Below, one piece after another: positions 3,681 to 31,729 of a stretch of DNA of 43,575 nucleotides. Origin of the DNA: an uncultured cyanobacterium (GTDB taxonomy: Bacteria > Cyanobacteriota > Cyanobacteriia > PCC-6307 > Cyanobiaceae); contig CAIJRN010000059.1 of assembly GCA_903823115.1 (NCBI GenBank), positions 1 to 43,575 of the forward strand, in the 5' to 3' direction. The notes beneath the pieces are model-generated. The model was not told where the DNA came from, searched no databases, and saw only the letters and a list, made by a program, of their open reading frames with translations. Made by a program: the position numbers and the translations under genes. Each line of letters starts with the position of its first letter. Positions within the stretch are counted from its first letter, which is position 1.

Positions 3681-4706
3681 ATGGCCCGCAGGCAGCGGCT
3701 CGATCTGGAACTGGTCACCCGGGGGCTCGCCGTCAGCCGCCAGCAGGCCCAGCAACTGATTCGCAGTGGTCGGGTGCGCAGCGGCGATCGGGTGCTGGAC
3801 AAGCCCGGCGTCGATGTGGCCGCCGAGCTGGATCTGCAGGTGGAGCAGCCCCCCCGCTTCGTCTCCCGCGGCGGTGAAAAGCTGGTGGCGGCCCTGGAGC
3901 AATTGCCGATCCAGGTGGCCGGCCGCGTCTGCCTGGATGGCGGCATCTCCACCGGCGGCTTCACCGACTGCCTGCTGCAGCACGGGGCCAGCCGCGTCTA
4001 TGGCATCGATGTGGGCTATGGCCAGACGGCCTGGAGTCTGCGCACCGATCCCCGCGTGGTGTTGCGGGAGCGCACCAACCTGCGGCACCTCAGCCCGGAG
4101 GATCTCTACGGCCCGGAGGATCCCTGGCCGGATCTGGCTGTCGCCGATGTCTCCTTCATTTCGCTCACCCGGGTGCTGCCGGCCCTGGGGGCGTTGCTGC
4201 GGCCGGCGATCACCGCGCTCGACGGCCCTGAGCCTGCCGGCAGCGGCGTTGAAGCTCTGCTGCTGGTCAAACCCCAGTTCGAGGTGGGGCGGGCCCGGGT
4301 GGGCAAGGGGGGCGTGGTGCGCGATCCGGCCGCGCACGTGGATGCGATTGAAACGGTGCTGGCGGCGGCGTTGGCCCAGGGCTGGCAGGCGGCCGGCCTG
4401 CTGGCCTCACCGCTCACCGGACCGGCCGGCAACCATGAATATCTGCTCTGGCTGCGCCGGCCCCTGGCCAGCTCTGGATCTCAGATCCCCGCCGACAAAG
4501 CCGCCACCGCCACTGCTGCTGCTGCCATTGGCAGTGCTGCCGCTGGCACTGCCGCCACTCCAGCCGATGGAGCTCCGGCAGCCGCAGCCAGCCCCAGCGA
4601 TCAGACGCCGTCCTGCGGCGAGCCGGGGGCACCGGCCCCGGTCAGGGGGCCGGTGGATGGCAGCACCATTCGCGATCTGGTGCGGCGCACCCTGAACGGC
4701 AGTTGA
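3681..4706 (+). CDS. tlyA: TlyA-family rRNA (cytidine-2'-O)-methyltransferase
   Basis: A 341-residue protein starting at ATG 3681 (MARRQRLDLELVTRGL). Residues 1-60 form an S4 RNA-binding domain (AVSRQQAQQLIRSGRVRSG). The rest is an FtsJ-like methyltransferase with LDGGISTGGFTDCLLQ as SAM motif I, DVSFISL and LLVKPQFEVGR. Known TlyA proteins methylate 16S and 23S rRNA; the family label 'hemolysin A' is historical. Odd feature: about 60 Ala/Pro/Ser-rich residues (roughly 263-323, bases 4470-4650) separate the catalytic domain from the usual terminal helix (TIRDLVRRTL). It converges on glnB. Confidence 0.92.
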   Translation: MARRQRLDLELVTRGLAVSRQQAQQLIRSGRVRSGDRVLDKPGVDVAAELDLQVEQPPRFVSRGGEKLVAALEQLPIQVAGRVCLDGGISTGGFTDCLLQHGASRVYGIDVGYGQTAWSLRTDPRVVLRERTNLRHLSPEDLYGPEDPWPDLAVADVSFISLTRVLPALGALLRPAITALDGPEPAGSGVEALLLVKPQFEVGRARVGKGGVVRDPAAHVDAIETVLAAALAQGWQAAGLLASPLTGPAGNHEYLLWLRRPLASSGSQIPADKAATATAAAAIGSAAAGTAATPADGAPAAAASPSDQTPSCGEPGAPAPVRGPVDGSTIRDLVRRTLNGS

Positions 4707-4733
4707 AACGGCCGGCACTCCAGCCGTGGCAAC

Positions 4734-4769
4734 CCAGGCCCTGGGGCCTGGCTGGGGCGATCGCCCCAG
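4734..4769. repeat. Hairpin followed by an 18-base perfect palindrome containing HIP1
   Basis: In the gap between the convergent tlyA and glnB genes, CCAGGCC (4734-4740) can pair with GGCCTGG (4745-4751). Directly after it comes the perfect palindrome CTGGGGCGATCGCCCCAG (4752-4769), centred on the cyanobacterial HIP1 octamer GCGATCGC (4757-4764). No T-tract follows on either strand, so this is not a standard terminator, though it could slow transcription from both sides. Confidence 0.55.
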
Positions 4770-4880
4770 CGGATGCGGACGATGCAATCAGGCGATGATC
4801 GCCAACCTCCCTCCCCAGCTCCTACTGGTCTGAGTGAGGGGAATCGGCAGGGAGGATCGGGATCGGTCGCCGTGCCCGGT

Positions 4881-5234
<354 letters not shown>

Positions 5235-5489
5235 TCAAGGTGAGCTCTGAACATGGATCCTGACGGATGATGGCGTCCGCAGGGGTCGCCGACAGCCGAT
5301 TGGGATGGGTCGAACCTGTTGCACCGAGCCAGTCTGCCTGGCTTGGCCAGTCTGGCTGATTCGGTTTGCAGGGATTGAACCACTCAGCATGGCGCATCCA
5401 GCTCGGCTGATTCCTGTTGATCCCGCTGGGCCGGGTCAGGTTCTCTGACACGATCGCGTTGGAACCAGGCTGAGCGGACATCAGGGTTG

Positions 5490-5563
5490 CTGACCATCAG
5501 ACTGGCTGACCGTCAGGCTCTCTGACCATCAGCGTGACTGAAATTCAGTCGTCCTGGGTTCAG
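5490..5563. repeat. Tandem array of 11-base palindromes with 16-base period
   Basis: CTGACCATCAG (5490), CTGACCGTCAG (5506), CTGACCATCAG (5522) and CTGAAATTCAG (5538) start exactly 16 bases apart. A decayed fifth copy, CTGGGTTCAG, starts at 5554, again in step. Each unit is CTGA-N3-TCAG, so its arms are self-complementary, and the 5-base linkers differ. This may be an operator array or a degenerate minisatellite. Confidence 0.75.
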
Positions 5564-5712
5564 TCGTGCTGGGGGCTGATCTGCTGAGCTCCGCTTGGCT
5601 GGGGCCGGCTTGGCTGGGTCGGTTGGGCCGTTCCAGTCCGCCGGCACAGTTTCGCAGAGATCCGTGTGGGCTGGCGGCCCTGTCATTAGGCCCGAGTCCA
5701 GCGGCAGCTGTC

Positions 5713-5726
5713 GTAACGATGGCTAC
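5713..5726. promoter_or_regulatory. NtcA-like box GTA-N8-TAC
   Basis: GTAACGATGGCTAC matches the NtcA consensus GTA-N8-TAC exactly in its six fixed bases. It ends 60 bases before the queF ATG. A TAN3T -10-like sequence (TACCTT, 5754-5759) follows after 27 bases, a little more than the usual 20-24. Chance matches to a six-base consensus are expected in 43 kb, so this is tentative. Confidence 0.3.
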
Positions 5727-5786
5727 GACTCCTGCGGCCCCGCCTGGATCCAGTACCTTCAACCCTTGCGAACCTGCCGCCAGTCC

Positions 5787-6206
5787 ATGGTCCTTGGTGC
5801 CACCGATCCGAGCGAACGCACCCAGTCGCCGAGCTACGGCGAGCGGGCGATTGCCGACGCCGAGCTGATCTGCTTCGACAACCCTCGCCCGGGCCGTCCC
5901 TATGAGGTGTCGATCGAGCTGCCGGAGTTCACCTGCAAGTGCCCGTTCTCGGGCTACCCCGATTTCGCCGTGTTGCGGTTGCTCTACCAGCCGGGCCCCC
6001 GGGTGCTGGAGCTCAAGGCGCTCAAGCTCTATGTGAATGGCTACCGGGAACGCACCATCTCCCACGAGGAGGTGGCCAACCTGATCCTCGACGACTTCGT
6101 GGCCGCCTGTGAGCCGGTCTGGATGGAGCTGCTGGCCGATTTCAATCCCCGTGGCAACGTACACACCCTCGTGCGGGTCAGCCATGGCCAGCGCCAGCCC
6201 TGTTGA
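5787..6206 (+). CDS. queF: NADPH-dependent 7-cyano-7-deazaguanine (preQ0) reductase
   Basis: QueF reduces the nitrile of preQ0 to the amine of preQ1 for queuosine in tRNA. This is the short, single-domain type at 139 residues. The catalytic Cys is residue 52 in KCPFSGYPDFA. The QueF motif ELKALKLY...YRERTISHEE, which binds NADPH, follows the Cys. ATG 5787 (MVLGATDPSERT) is chosen because the upstream in-frame sequence is not protein-like. It ends three bases before the convergent ccs1 stop, so the two 3' ends must share termination signals. Confidence 0.95.
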   Translation: MVLGATDPSERTQSPSYGERAIADAELICFDNPRPGRPYEVSIELPEFTCKCPFSGYPDFAVLRLLYQPGPRVLELKALKLYVNGYRERTISHEEVANLILDDFVAACEPVWMELLADFNPRGNVHTLVRVSHGQRQPC

Positions 6207-6209
6207 GCT

Positions 6210-7706
6210 TCAGGCCTCCTCGGCTGCTGGACTCGCCGACACCCGGCCGAGCAGGGCCGGCAGTTCGGCGGCGAAGGCCGTGAGGTCGCGATTGCAGAGG
6301 CCGGCCACGTGCAGGCGTCCGGCCTCGGCTTCGCTGATCGCCCACAGCTGGCGGGTGGCCACCAGGCTGAGTCCGCCGCCGAGCAGGGCGATCGCAAAGC
6401 CGCTGTACACGAGGGGCACGCCTGGATCCCGCTTGAGCAGAATGCCGCTCGCCGGCAGCACGGAGAGCACGCGGATCGGCAGGCTGCGCACCTCCACCGC
6501 CTCGCCGCCGGGCTGAATTCGGGCCAGTTGCTCACCGTCGGGGCCAAAGATCTCTGCCGGTCCCTGTTCGCTGCGCAGGCTCAGAAACACCGGCTCGCTG
6601 CCATCGGGGCGGGTGGGCAGCACCAGGCCCCAGACCTGTTCACCCAGTTCGGGATAGGTCTGCAGCGGCAACTGCAACACGGGGCTGCGGCCCAGCTGGA
6701 TGTTGACCGCCGCCAGCCCCCAGTCCGCCTGATAGAGGGTCATGCCCCGGTGGCGCAGGGGATGGTTGACGCTGATCACCGCCCGCAGCGTTTCGCCCGC
6801 CATGGCTGTTGTGCCTGTGGAGCCAACGGCCTGCTCCTTCTCAGCGGCTGTGGTTTGGCTGCCGGGCTCTGGTGCGCTGGATGCGGCGGGCTCGGCACTG
6901 GAACCAAGCCGGCTGGGCGCTGGCACGGCACTGTCCCTTGGGGAGGTGGTCTCCCTCCCCCTGGGTGGCGGAATCAACCGCAGGCTGGAGCTGAACTGTT
7001 CCGGCCGGCCGGCGGGATCGCGTTGGATCTGGAAATCGTCAAGGGCCAGGGTCAGCTGGGTGTGGCCGCGGCTGTCGAGCAGTTCCAGCTCCCGACCTGG
7101 AGCGAGGAAGCGCTCCAGCCTCTGGCCCGCCACAGCCCCCCAGGCCGATCCCACCATCAGCACCACCAGCCCGGCATGGACCAGCAACGGTCCGACCCTG
7201 CCGAGCACGCCCCGACGGGCGGCCAGGCGATCGGGCTGGCGCTGCACCTGCCAGCCACCGGCCCGCAGTTCCCGTTCCAAGCGATCCAGGCAGGGGCCGG
7301 GCTCGGAGCTGAGCATGGTTTCGGCCACACTCAACTTGCTGAGCTGGCGTGGGGAGCGGTAGTCGATCCAGCGCAGGGAGGCCTGCAGAGCCGGCCACTG
7401 GCGCCGCCAGCTGCACAGCACCAGGGCCAACCCGAGCCAGGCCAGCAGGGCCAGGAACCAGCCGCTGGAATAGACGTGGTCGAGTTGCAGTCGCAGGATC
7501 CCTTCGCCATCGACCAGGCCCAGCCAGGGGGCTGGGTCGTAGCGCTGGTGGTAAAAGAGCTCGCTTTCTTTCTGGGGAATGGCGGTGCCGACACCACTGG
7601 CGAGGGCGATGACCAGCAGCAGCGTGATCGCCAGGCGCAGATCGGCCAGCCAGCCGATCGAGCGCTGAAGCCGGCGCCAGATGCTCGAGGAGGGGGCCGC
7701 CGTCAT
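6210..7706 (-). CDS. ccs1: Cytochrome c biogenesis protein Ccs1 (ResB/CcsB type)
   Basis: A 498-residue membrane protein of system II cytochrome c maturation; with CcsA it carries heme across the thylakoid membrane and attaches it to apocytochromes f and c6. The N-terminus has [26 protein letters not shown], typical of ResB proteins, then a second membrane span ([21 protein letters not shown]), a third ([17 protein letters not shown]), a large lumenal domain, and a last span near [22 protein letters not shown]. Residues about 249-303 are a Ser/Pro/Ala-rich insertion. ATG 7706 is right because it overlaps the ccdA stop as ATGA, which suggests translational coupling. Confidence 0.93.
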
Positions 7707-30244: not shown

Positions 30245-31729
30245 TCAGGGCAGCAGGCCCCGACCGACGGGGCCAGAACCCAGGGGATCGCGACCCCAGG
30301 GTCCAAGACCCCGGCTGCCACGACCCATGGGGCCACGACCCATAGGGCCCAGACCCATGGAGCCGAGACCCAGAGGCCCATGATCCTGAGGCTCAGAACC
30401 CTGGGGGCCAGCGTCACCCGCGCCATCGGCGCCGCTGCTGGGCGTCAGCGGCCGCCAGTCCCCCAGCCAGCGCCGGGTGTCCGGATCCTGTTCCGCCAGG
30501 CGACGCAGCAGGGCCCCCGGCTGACCGGCCGCCATCGTGCTGCGCAACAGCTCGGCCGCCGCCAGCCGGCCCGTGCGGCGGGTGGTGACCACTGCCAGAG
30601 CCGCCTGGGCCACGGCCACCGGCGCTGCCGGGGCCAGGCTGAGGCCACCGCTGAAGGGGGCCGCCAGCACCAGCACCTGGCGCAGGCCGCCGAGCATCAG
30701 TTGCAGGCCCAGCTGGGCTCCGGCGAGCAGGGCGTTCTGGCTTGACAGCCGCCCCAGCAGCTGGCGGGCGCTGCTGCGGGTCATCGGCAGGCCATAGAGC
30801 TGGCAGAGCTGCAGCACCAGGGCGCTGTCGCAGGCCAGGCCGCCGGCCAGATCCAGCAGCAGCAGCGGGTTGGCGGCGACGCCGGTGGCCTTGAGGGCGG
30901 CAAAGCGGCCGATCAGGCCCTGGGCCTGGCGGCGGCCCTGGCGCAGGCGCTGTTGATGCAGGCCCTGGCTGAAGCGATCGGCGGCCCGCAGGGCATTGAG
31001 GGCCAGCAGGCGCTCGCCGTGCTGGTTCAGCACCGCATCCAGCTGCTCCGTCAGCGGCTCGATGCGCGCGGCTTCGAGGCGGCTGCGCACGCGTCCATCG
31101 CTCAGCAGCTGGGCCCGCCGAGGCGCCGCCGCCACGGCAATCGGTTCAAGGTGGCGGGCCGCGGCCGGCAGGCGCCTGCGGATGCTGGCCTTGAGGGCCT
31201 CAAGCTCGGCGGCGGGCCAGCAGTCGCAGCGGTTGAGCACGAGCAGCAGGGGCTTGCCGCTGGCCACCAGGGAGTCCAGGGCTTCCAGTTCGCTCTGGCT
31301 GAGATCGCTGTCAATCACCAGCAGCACCAGATCGGCGCCGAGGGCGACCCGGGCGGCCAGGCGGGCGCGGGCCGCTGCGGCGATCTCATCGATGCCGGGG
31401 GTGTCGACCAGATCGACCGAGGCCAGGCCCCGGATCGGCCGCGTCCAGGGGTGCTCCTGCTGGCGCCGGGTGCAGCCATGGGCCACGTCGGTGGCGAAGT
31501 GTTCTTCCCCCAGCAGCGCATTGAGCAGGCTCGACTTACCCACCCCCACCCGTCCGAAGACGGCCACCCGGACCCGTTGCTGCTCCAGGCGCTGCAGCTG
31601 GCGATCAAGGCCCTGGAGTTCCGGCCCCAGCAGGCTGAGTTCCCGGGGGCTGAGCTGCAGCTCGCCACGCCAGCGGCGCAGCAGCAACCGGCAGCGCTCG
31701 GGCATGGCAGGGGTGGGTGGGGGCCTCAT
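30245..31729 (-). CDS. Era/YcjF-like GTPase with DUF697-type membrane domain
   Basis: A 494-residue protein. The G domain has G1 GRVGVGKSSLLN (about residue 59), G3 DLVDTPGID, and G4 VLNRCDCWP. After it come helical, hydrophobic segments (NPLLLLDLAGGLACDSALVLQLCQLYGLPM) of the DUF697 type found in cyanobacterial membrane GTPases; role unknown, perhaps membrane or ribosome linked. The last 55 residues are a pentapeptide repeat of the form G-P-x-G-x encoded by a 15-base minisatellite. ATG 31729 overlaps the upstream gene's stop (ATGA), which fixes the start. Confidence 0.88.
   Translation of the reverse strand: MRPPPTPAMPERCRLLLRRWRGELQLSPRELSLLGPELQGLDRQLQRLEQQRVRVAVFGRVGVGKSSLLNALLGEEHFATDVAHGCTRRQQEHPWTRPIRGLASVDLVDTPGIDEIAAAARARLAARVALGADLVLLVIDSDLSQSELEALDSLVASGKPLLLVLNRCDCWPAAELEALKASIRRRLPAAARHLEPIAVAAAPRRAQLLSDGRVRSRLEAARIEPLTEQLDAVLNQHGERLLALNALRAADRFSQGLHQQRLRQGRRQAQGLIGRFAALKATGVAANPLLLLDLAGGLACDSALVLQLCQLYGLPMTRSSARQLLGRLSSQNALLAGAQLGLQLMLGGLRQVLVLAAPFSGGLSLAPAAPVAVAQAALAVVTTRRTGRLAAAELLRSTMAAGQPGALLRRLAEQDPDTRRWLGDWRPLTPSSGADGAGDAGPQGSEPQDHGPLGLGSMGLGPMGRGPMGRGSRGLGPWGRDPLGSGPVGRGLLP
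30261..30410. repeat. 15-base minisatellite, ten copies, inside the GTPase 3' end
   Basis: Ten consecutive 15-base units fill 30261-30410 exactly. Examples are CGACCCATGGGGCCA, CGACCCATAGGGCCC, AGACCCATGGAGCCG and AGACCCAGAGGCCCA. Conserved core: GACCC...GGCC. The period is a multiple of three, so copy-number change keeps frame; the product is a Gly/Pro pentapeptide repeat. Confidence 0.9.

Follow-up and report, generated by a model that had tools for sequence, protein, structure and literature searches.

A 16-base-period palindromic array in the putative glnB leader of an uncultured cyanobacterium, probably a young and decaying tandem repeat

Introduction

Degenerate short tandem repeats of intergenic DNA are referred to as "cryptically simple" sequence, and cyanobacteria also carry the STRR repeats, short tandem repeats with 7-base units that are found at many places. 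Here we describe an array of palindromic units located between the genes for the nitrogen regulator P-II (glnB) and preQ1 synthase (queF) in a stretch of 43,575 nucleotides (hereafter the window; GenBank assembly GCA_903823115.1, contig CAIJRN010000059.1) from an uncultured member of the Cyanobiaceae. It resembles degenerate short tandem repeats in its head-to-tail units of about 16 bases, in their turnover between sister species and in the presence of arrays of similar period elsewhere in the intergenic DNA of the same genome, and its palindrome arms are better kept than the linkers and centres, which would not be expected under simple uniform decay. With the STRR repeats it has in common being a short tandem repeat in cyanobacterial DNA; unlike these 7-base, dispersed elements, it has a 16-base unit and occupies one place in the genome, and we do not count it among them.

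Regarding glnB itself, published work on Synechocystis PCC 6803 describes an NtcA-dependent promoter with a -10 hexamer and a GTA-N8-TAC site, an NtcA-regulated start at -54/-53 and a second start at -33 (PMC2758279). The window would share this layout on its minus strand, and it differs in that the start we infer is placed about 459 bases upstream of glnB, with the array in between.

Results

The glnB–queF spacer and its putative long leader

The features of the spacer are collected in Table 1. The match of glnB to the P-II model scores 149.9 bits, under the curated NCBIfam cut-off of 202, and the start codon of queF is our own choice, an upstream TTG at 5595 being likewise open. About 120 bases past the array there is a promoter-like block formed by a minus-strand TAATG and an NtcA-type GTA-N8-TAC site. 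Searched as CATTA or TATTA followed by GTA-N8-TAC at a near-fixed distance, this block was exact in 28 of 40 spacers (the window and 39 relatives), relaxed in seven and without a match in five. Part of the basis for placing the glnB start near 5678 is the geometry that we take NtcA-activated promoters to have. Since the conserved block sits beyond the array, the latter would be inside the glnB 5' leader, and the first-pass annotation, made from the sequence alone, was inexact in assigning it to the promoter region, the array being downstream of the promoter-like block.

Table 1. Coordinates of the array and of the surrounding features in the window.
Feature	Position	Strand	Remarks
glnB, nitrogen regulator P-II, 112 aa	4881..5219	-	model match E 3.2e-44
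Inferred glnB 5' leader, ~459 nt	5220..5678	-	start inferred from promoter geometry
TCAG-N5-CTGA element	5436..5448	.	out of phase with the array
Whole 16-base-period array with degenerate end copies	5474..5563	.	
Perfect unit 1	5490..5500	.	CTGACCATCAG
Perfect unit 2	5506..5516	.	CTGACCGTCAG
Perfect unit 3	5522..5532	.	CTGACCATCAG
Perfect unit 4	5538..5548	.	CTGAAATTCAG
Decayed unit 5	5554..5563	.	CTGG-GT-TCAG
-10-like element of glnB	5684..5689	-	CATTAG on plus strand
NtcA-type site (GTA-N8-TAC)	5713..5726	.	GTAACGATGGCTAC
queF (QueF-II, preQ1 synthase)	5787..6206	+	TIGR03139, above cut-off

By analogy with the second start of PCC 6803, glnB might also have a gene-proximal start here, with which the array would not be transcribed. 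Nearby we found a single sigma-70-like match, at 5238-5209 of the minus strand; as it overlaps the start codon of glnB, it cannot serve this gene as annotated. A coding origin of the array was also discarded, its period of 16 not being a multiple of three, and the minus-strand open reading frames 5179-5481 and 5529-6185 gave no NCBIfam match up to E=0.001.

Long leaders appear in one clade only. The inferred glnB leader measures 246-459 nt in seven species including that of the window, compared to 61-125 nt in the 28 relatives with a recognisable block, and a tree of glnB and queF (40 rows) places the seven long-leader species on one side of a branch with support 97/94. G033, whose locus is split over two overlapping contigs and which was left out of the tree, also reads as long-leadered, and another genome (G021) yielded no orthologous spacer. 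The window leader has 4.3 CTGA/TCAG words per 100 bases, the top of the regions compared, the highest value among 116 other intergenic regions of at least 150 bases being 3.7 and their median 1.2. Even outside the array it holds 11 of these words versus 5.0 expected, and the leaders of two other species of the clade, G025 and G036, hold 16 and 19, respectively, versus 4.8 expected.

Structure of the array

Four perfect CTGANNNTCAG units (CTGA-N3-TCAG) start exactly 16 bases apart, followed by a fifth with one arm mismatch and one central base missing, and preceded by an in-phase degenerate copy at 5474 (three mismatches in the double pattern), i.e., four perfect and two degenerate copies arranged head to tail at a constant period of 16, as in a tandem repeat. 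A separate 15-base duplication (5544-5573) contains the decayed fifth unit. The four units and the decayed fifth in step with them had already been pointed out in the first-pass annotation, and both the coordinates and a comparison with shuffled sequences bear this out: the window has six CTGANNNTCAG matches, four of them in the array, versus 1.02 expected and a maximum of four in 100 shuffles. The strongest period-16 self-similarity of the whole window also falls at the array. The same bases can be read in a second register as TCAG-N5-CTGA (at 5481, 5497, 5513, and 5529), a palindromic reading nested with that of the 11-base unit. There is one extra copy of this second form at 5436; of the seven long-leader species, five share its minus-strand TCAG-NN-AACCTG without variation and two do not have it.

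The array in related genomes

It had been proposed in the first-pass annotation that aligning the spacers of relatives would reveal conserved units if these were binding sites. Among 39 contiguous orthologous spacers, 38 are devoid of CTGANNNTCAG and only the sister species, G039, has one perfect unit, which is not the conservation expected of operator sites; the scanned parts of the G033 locus, at overlapping contig ends, do not contain it either. The sister retains three units in the same 16-base phase, of which one is perfect and the other two are mismatched in an arm; one 16-base unit is missing from it. Within the long-leader clade this phase is kept only there. The homologous spot in G025 and G036 has instead two 15-base units each, and in each species both copies carry the same species-specific variant, a mark of recent duplication. 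Along the spacer, the identity between the window and its sister is 92%, 83%, 69% (array), 84%, and 95%, the array being the lowest and the other three leader segments staying at 83-92%. Together with the missing unit, this corresponds to the quick turnover between close relatives typical of tandem repeats, as seen between species with one genome for each.

Arms, linkers, and centres

When the window units were paired with those of the sister, the palindrome arms differed at 2/24 positions, the central bases at 4/9, and the linkers at 8/15. The arms are thus more stable than linkers and centres taken together (12/24; P=0.003). Compared to the segments adjoining the array (5361-5464 plus 5549-5680, 39/236 differences), they are not slower, in what is a small sample (P=0.39), although slower arms would be expected of an operator, and it is the linkers and centres that change faster than these flanks (P=0.0004). 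Two more similar segments, 5220-5360 (11/140 differences) and the promoter segment (6/110), were left out of the flank test. We assumed how the units pair across the indel; if the comparison is restricted to the two clear units, the arms differ at 2/16 positions and the rest at 12/16 (P=0.001), and the arms do not depart from the flanks (P=1.0).

A similar picture is found within the window, where the four copies agree at 32/32 arm positions and depart from the majority 14 times in the 32 positions outside the arms. In simulations of uniform decay, the 4+4 inverted repeat was intact in all four copies in 0/20,000 runs. The clustering of invariant columns depends on the frame (P=0.003 in that of the first-pass annotation, P=0.112 in the frame of best identity) and their number gives P=0.057 and P=0.054, respectively; one other sampled array, in L079, had a clustering P of 0.0095. 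Linkers and centres being faster than the flanks, plain point-mutation decay is not the whole story. Turnover by slippage would leave stable arms and mismatched linkers if non-equivalent units were being compared. The first-pass annotation would have abandoned the binding sites if the array were absent from close relatives and its arms drifted as fast as its linkers; only the former was found, the sister excepted, the arms having drifted more slowly.

Occurrence in the same genome and in others

Adjacent CTGANNNTCAG pairs with a spacing of 3-7 bases appear nowhere else in the 3.42 Mb genome (86 contigs), so the recurrence at 16-base spacing that had been suggested as a check did not materialise. 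Our sample comprised the window and 20 further stretches, 432,078 bases in total, and its intergenic regions were delimited with our own codon-usage script. In this intergenic DNA, single CTGANNNTCAG sites are not enriched (3 versus 3.03 expected, own spacer excluded), which does not fit with sites that recur before other genes. The whole genome contains 127 versus about 104 expected from word frequencies, a mild excess, and the whole sample 25 versus 13.1, a figure that includes the array and comes from sampling that leans towards the word. Counting CTGA..TCAG by spacing in the sample gave 50 at 0, 25 at 3, 19 at 6, 26 at 9, and 23 at 12 (13.1 expected); spacings of 0, 9, and 12 are as high as 3, which suggests that the mild excess is codon-phased.

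Arrays as such are not rare. In sampled intergenic DNA, arrays with a period of 10-20 are found at 21 places (counting the rows of our own spacer) versus 0-2 in ten shuffles, and nine other 72-base stretches of the sample, some of them coding, exceed the array in short-period self-similarity. The window itself has a degenerate 15-base-period array at 30256-30372 (7.8 copies, GGCCACGACCCATGG-like). In 42 genomes, the double-unit pattern was present in three for CTGA (own genome included) and in three, seven, and two for GAGC, CGAT, and TGCT, control words of similar intergenic frequency that are imperfect in that six CGAT genomes out of seven have a sequence in common. With the words written backward, the counts were 0 (GACT), 1 (CGAG), and 0 and 0 (CGAT and TGCT backward); GACT is a weak control because its single sites are much rarer (19 versus 127 for CTGA). 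Control arrays with at least three units have near-identical linkers, unlike the array of the window. One genome, G029, has three separate palindromic CGAT-N3-ATCG arrays of 14-15-base period, on contigs C5 (48301), C12 (21490), and C45 (69408).

Among GTDB genomes we found 23 stretches with three perfect CTGANNNTCAG units, of which 17 have identical or near-identical linkers and are plain minisatellites, the remaining six being L098, L100, L105, L108, L109, and L116. L098 (5010-5332) holds nine CTGANNNTCAG palindromes and L109 (1289-1727; Actinacidiphila epipremni PRB2-1, contig 26) twelve, both with several runs 16 bases apart and with linkers that vary; the first CTGA of L098 includes the stop codon of the open reading frame before it. 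These two have the appearance of an intergenic repeat family whose linkers are free to vary. Another relative (G010; L075, 1485-1570) has an independent CTGANNNTCAG array, likewise of 16-base period, which matches the array of L100, from Cyanobium sp. N.Huapi 1H5. It starts at the end of a methyltransferase-like gene (named from its translation), at the stop codon. Its counterparts in G006, G003, and G002 are degenerate, and none could be recognised in G004, G012, and G016; G013, with a split locus, was searched and left out of this comparison. We considered a common element with the array of the window and rejected it, the G010 array being a separate locus with similar turnover.

Discussion

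We consider it likely that the array is a minisatellite-like tandem repeat, young and in decay, inside an expanded glnB 5' leader. The leader would have lengthened in the ancestor of the clade, and a seed with CTGA/TCAG, perhaps the TCAG-N5-CTGA at 5436, would then have been duplicated by replication slippage at a 16-base period, giving copies that may now be turning over. This arrangement accounts for the palindromic look, since head-to-tail copies of a unit with an inverted repeat inside can be read as palindromes in two nested registers, and the array needs no dedicated binding protein. Of the two possibilities raised in the first-pass annotation, it is the decayed minisatellite that gains support, from the turnover of units against the sister and from an array found only here in its own genome. 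The operator array loses it, with a perfect unit retained only in the sister, no intergenic enrichment, and arms that are not slower than the flanks.

A lineage-specific operator would have a dimeric regulator on each CTGA-N3-TCAG, 16 bases or about 1.5 helical turns apart, which would modulate glnB as a repressor or a roadblock placed downstream of the promoter. The invariant arms of the four copies, their stability against linkers and centres, and the genome-wide excess of single sites speak for it, but that excess looks codon-phased, the arms do no better than the adjacent flanks in a small sample, and the array is shared, in decayed form, with the sister alone, all of which makes us regard this explanation as unlikely. 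A shared regulon was rejected, with no second array in the genome and no intergenic enrichment in the sample. The mere clustering of a common word has in its favour the CTGA/TCAG-rich leaders of some relatives and of the window itself outside the array; the exact 16-base phasing of four perfect units, the six sites seen in none of the 100 shuffles, and the self-similarity peak at the array leave it with hardly any credibility.

It is also quite unlikely that neighbouring units of the transcribed leader pair into nested hairpins affecting the stability of the glnB mRNA or the translation of P-II. The leader does fold better than its shuffles (z -3.8; array alone -2.5) and, in a common run, its z was -4.2 for the transcript strand versus -2.3 for the opposite one; the transcript strands of the six other long leaders went from -1.3 to -4.5, and 24 control regions had a mean of -0.9 and a minimum of -3.6. 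The base pairs of a small hairpin at 5436, UCAG-N5-CUGA, are preserved across five species, one of which uses a U-G pair, and 7/91 predicted pairs show two-sided change. However, the opposite strand is about equally or more structured in five of the seven species (the exceptions being that of the window and G027), as expected from palindromic words, and the array itself is not conserved. The RNAalifold covariation term for five aligned leaders is unfavourable (+6.0), for which a conserved RNA structure was discarded, and so was a known RNA family or riboswitch near the leader, given that Rfam gave no match up to E=1 in 4600-6400. Given the longer persistence of the arms relative to linkers and centres, the array might act as an operator or as hairpins in the species of the window alone, or in it and its sister, although none of our observations calls for such a role. 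A more ambitious proposal, to which we give little credence, is that after a roughly fourfold to sevenfold lengthening of the leader in this clade, the TCAG-N5-CTGA element present in five of the seven species was multiplied into a phased array by which P-II synthesis is tuned, the intermediary being a bound protein or hairpins in the RNA and the linkers being left free.

With a tandem repeat as the preferred explanation, this locus illustrates how repeat turnover can give rise to evenly phased palindromes in a promoter-like spacer, without a regulon being required. In turn, the longer P-II leader inferred for this clade, behind a conserved NtcA-type block, amounts to a change in a gene central to nitrogen control that is concrete and can be tested.
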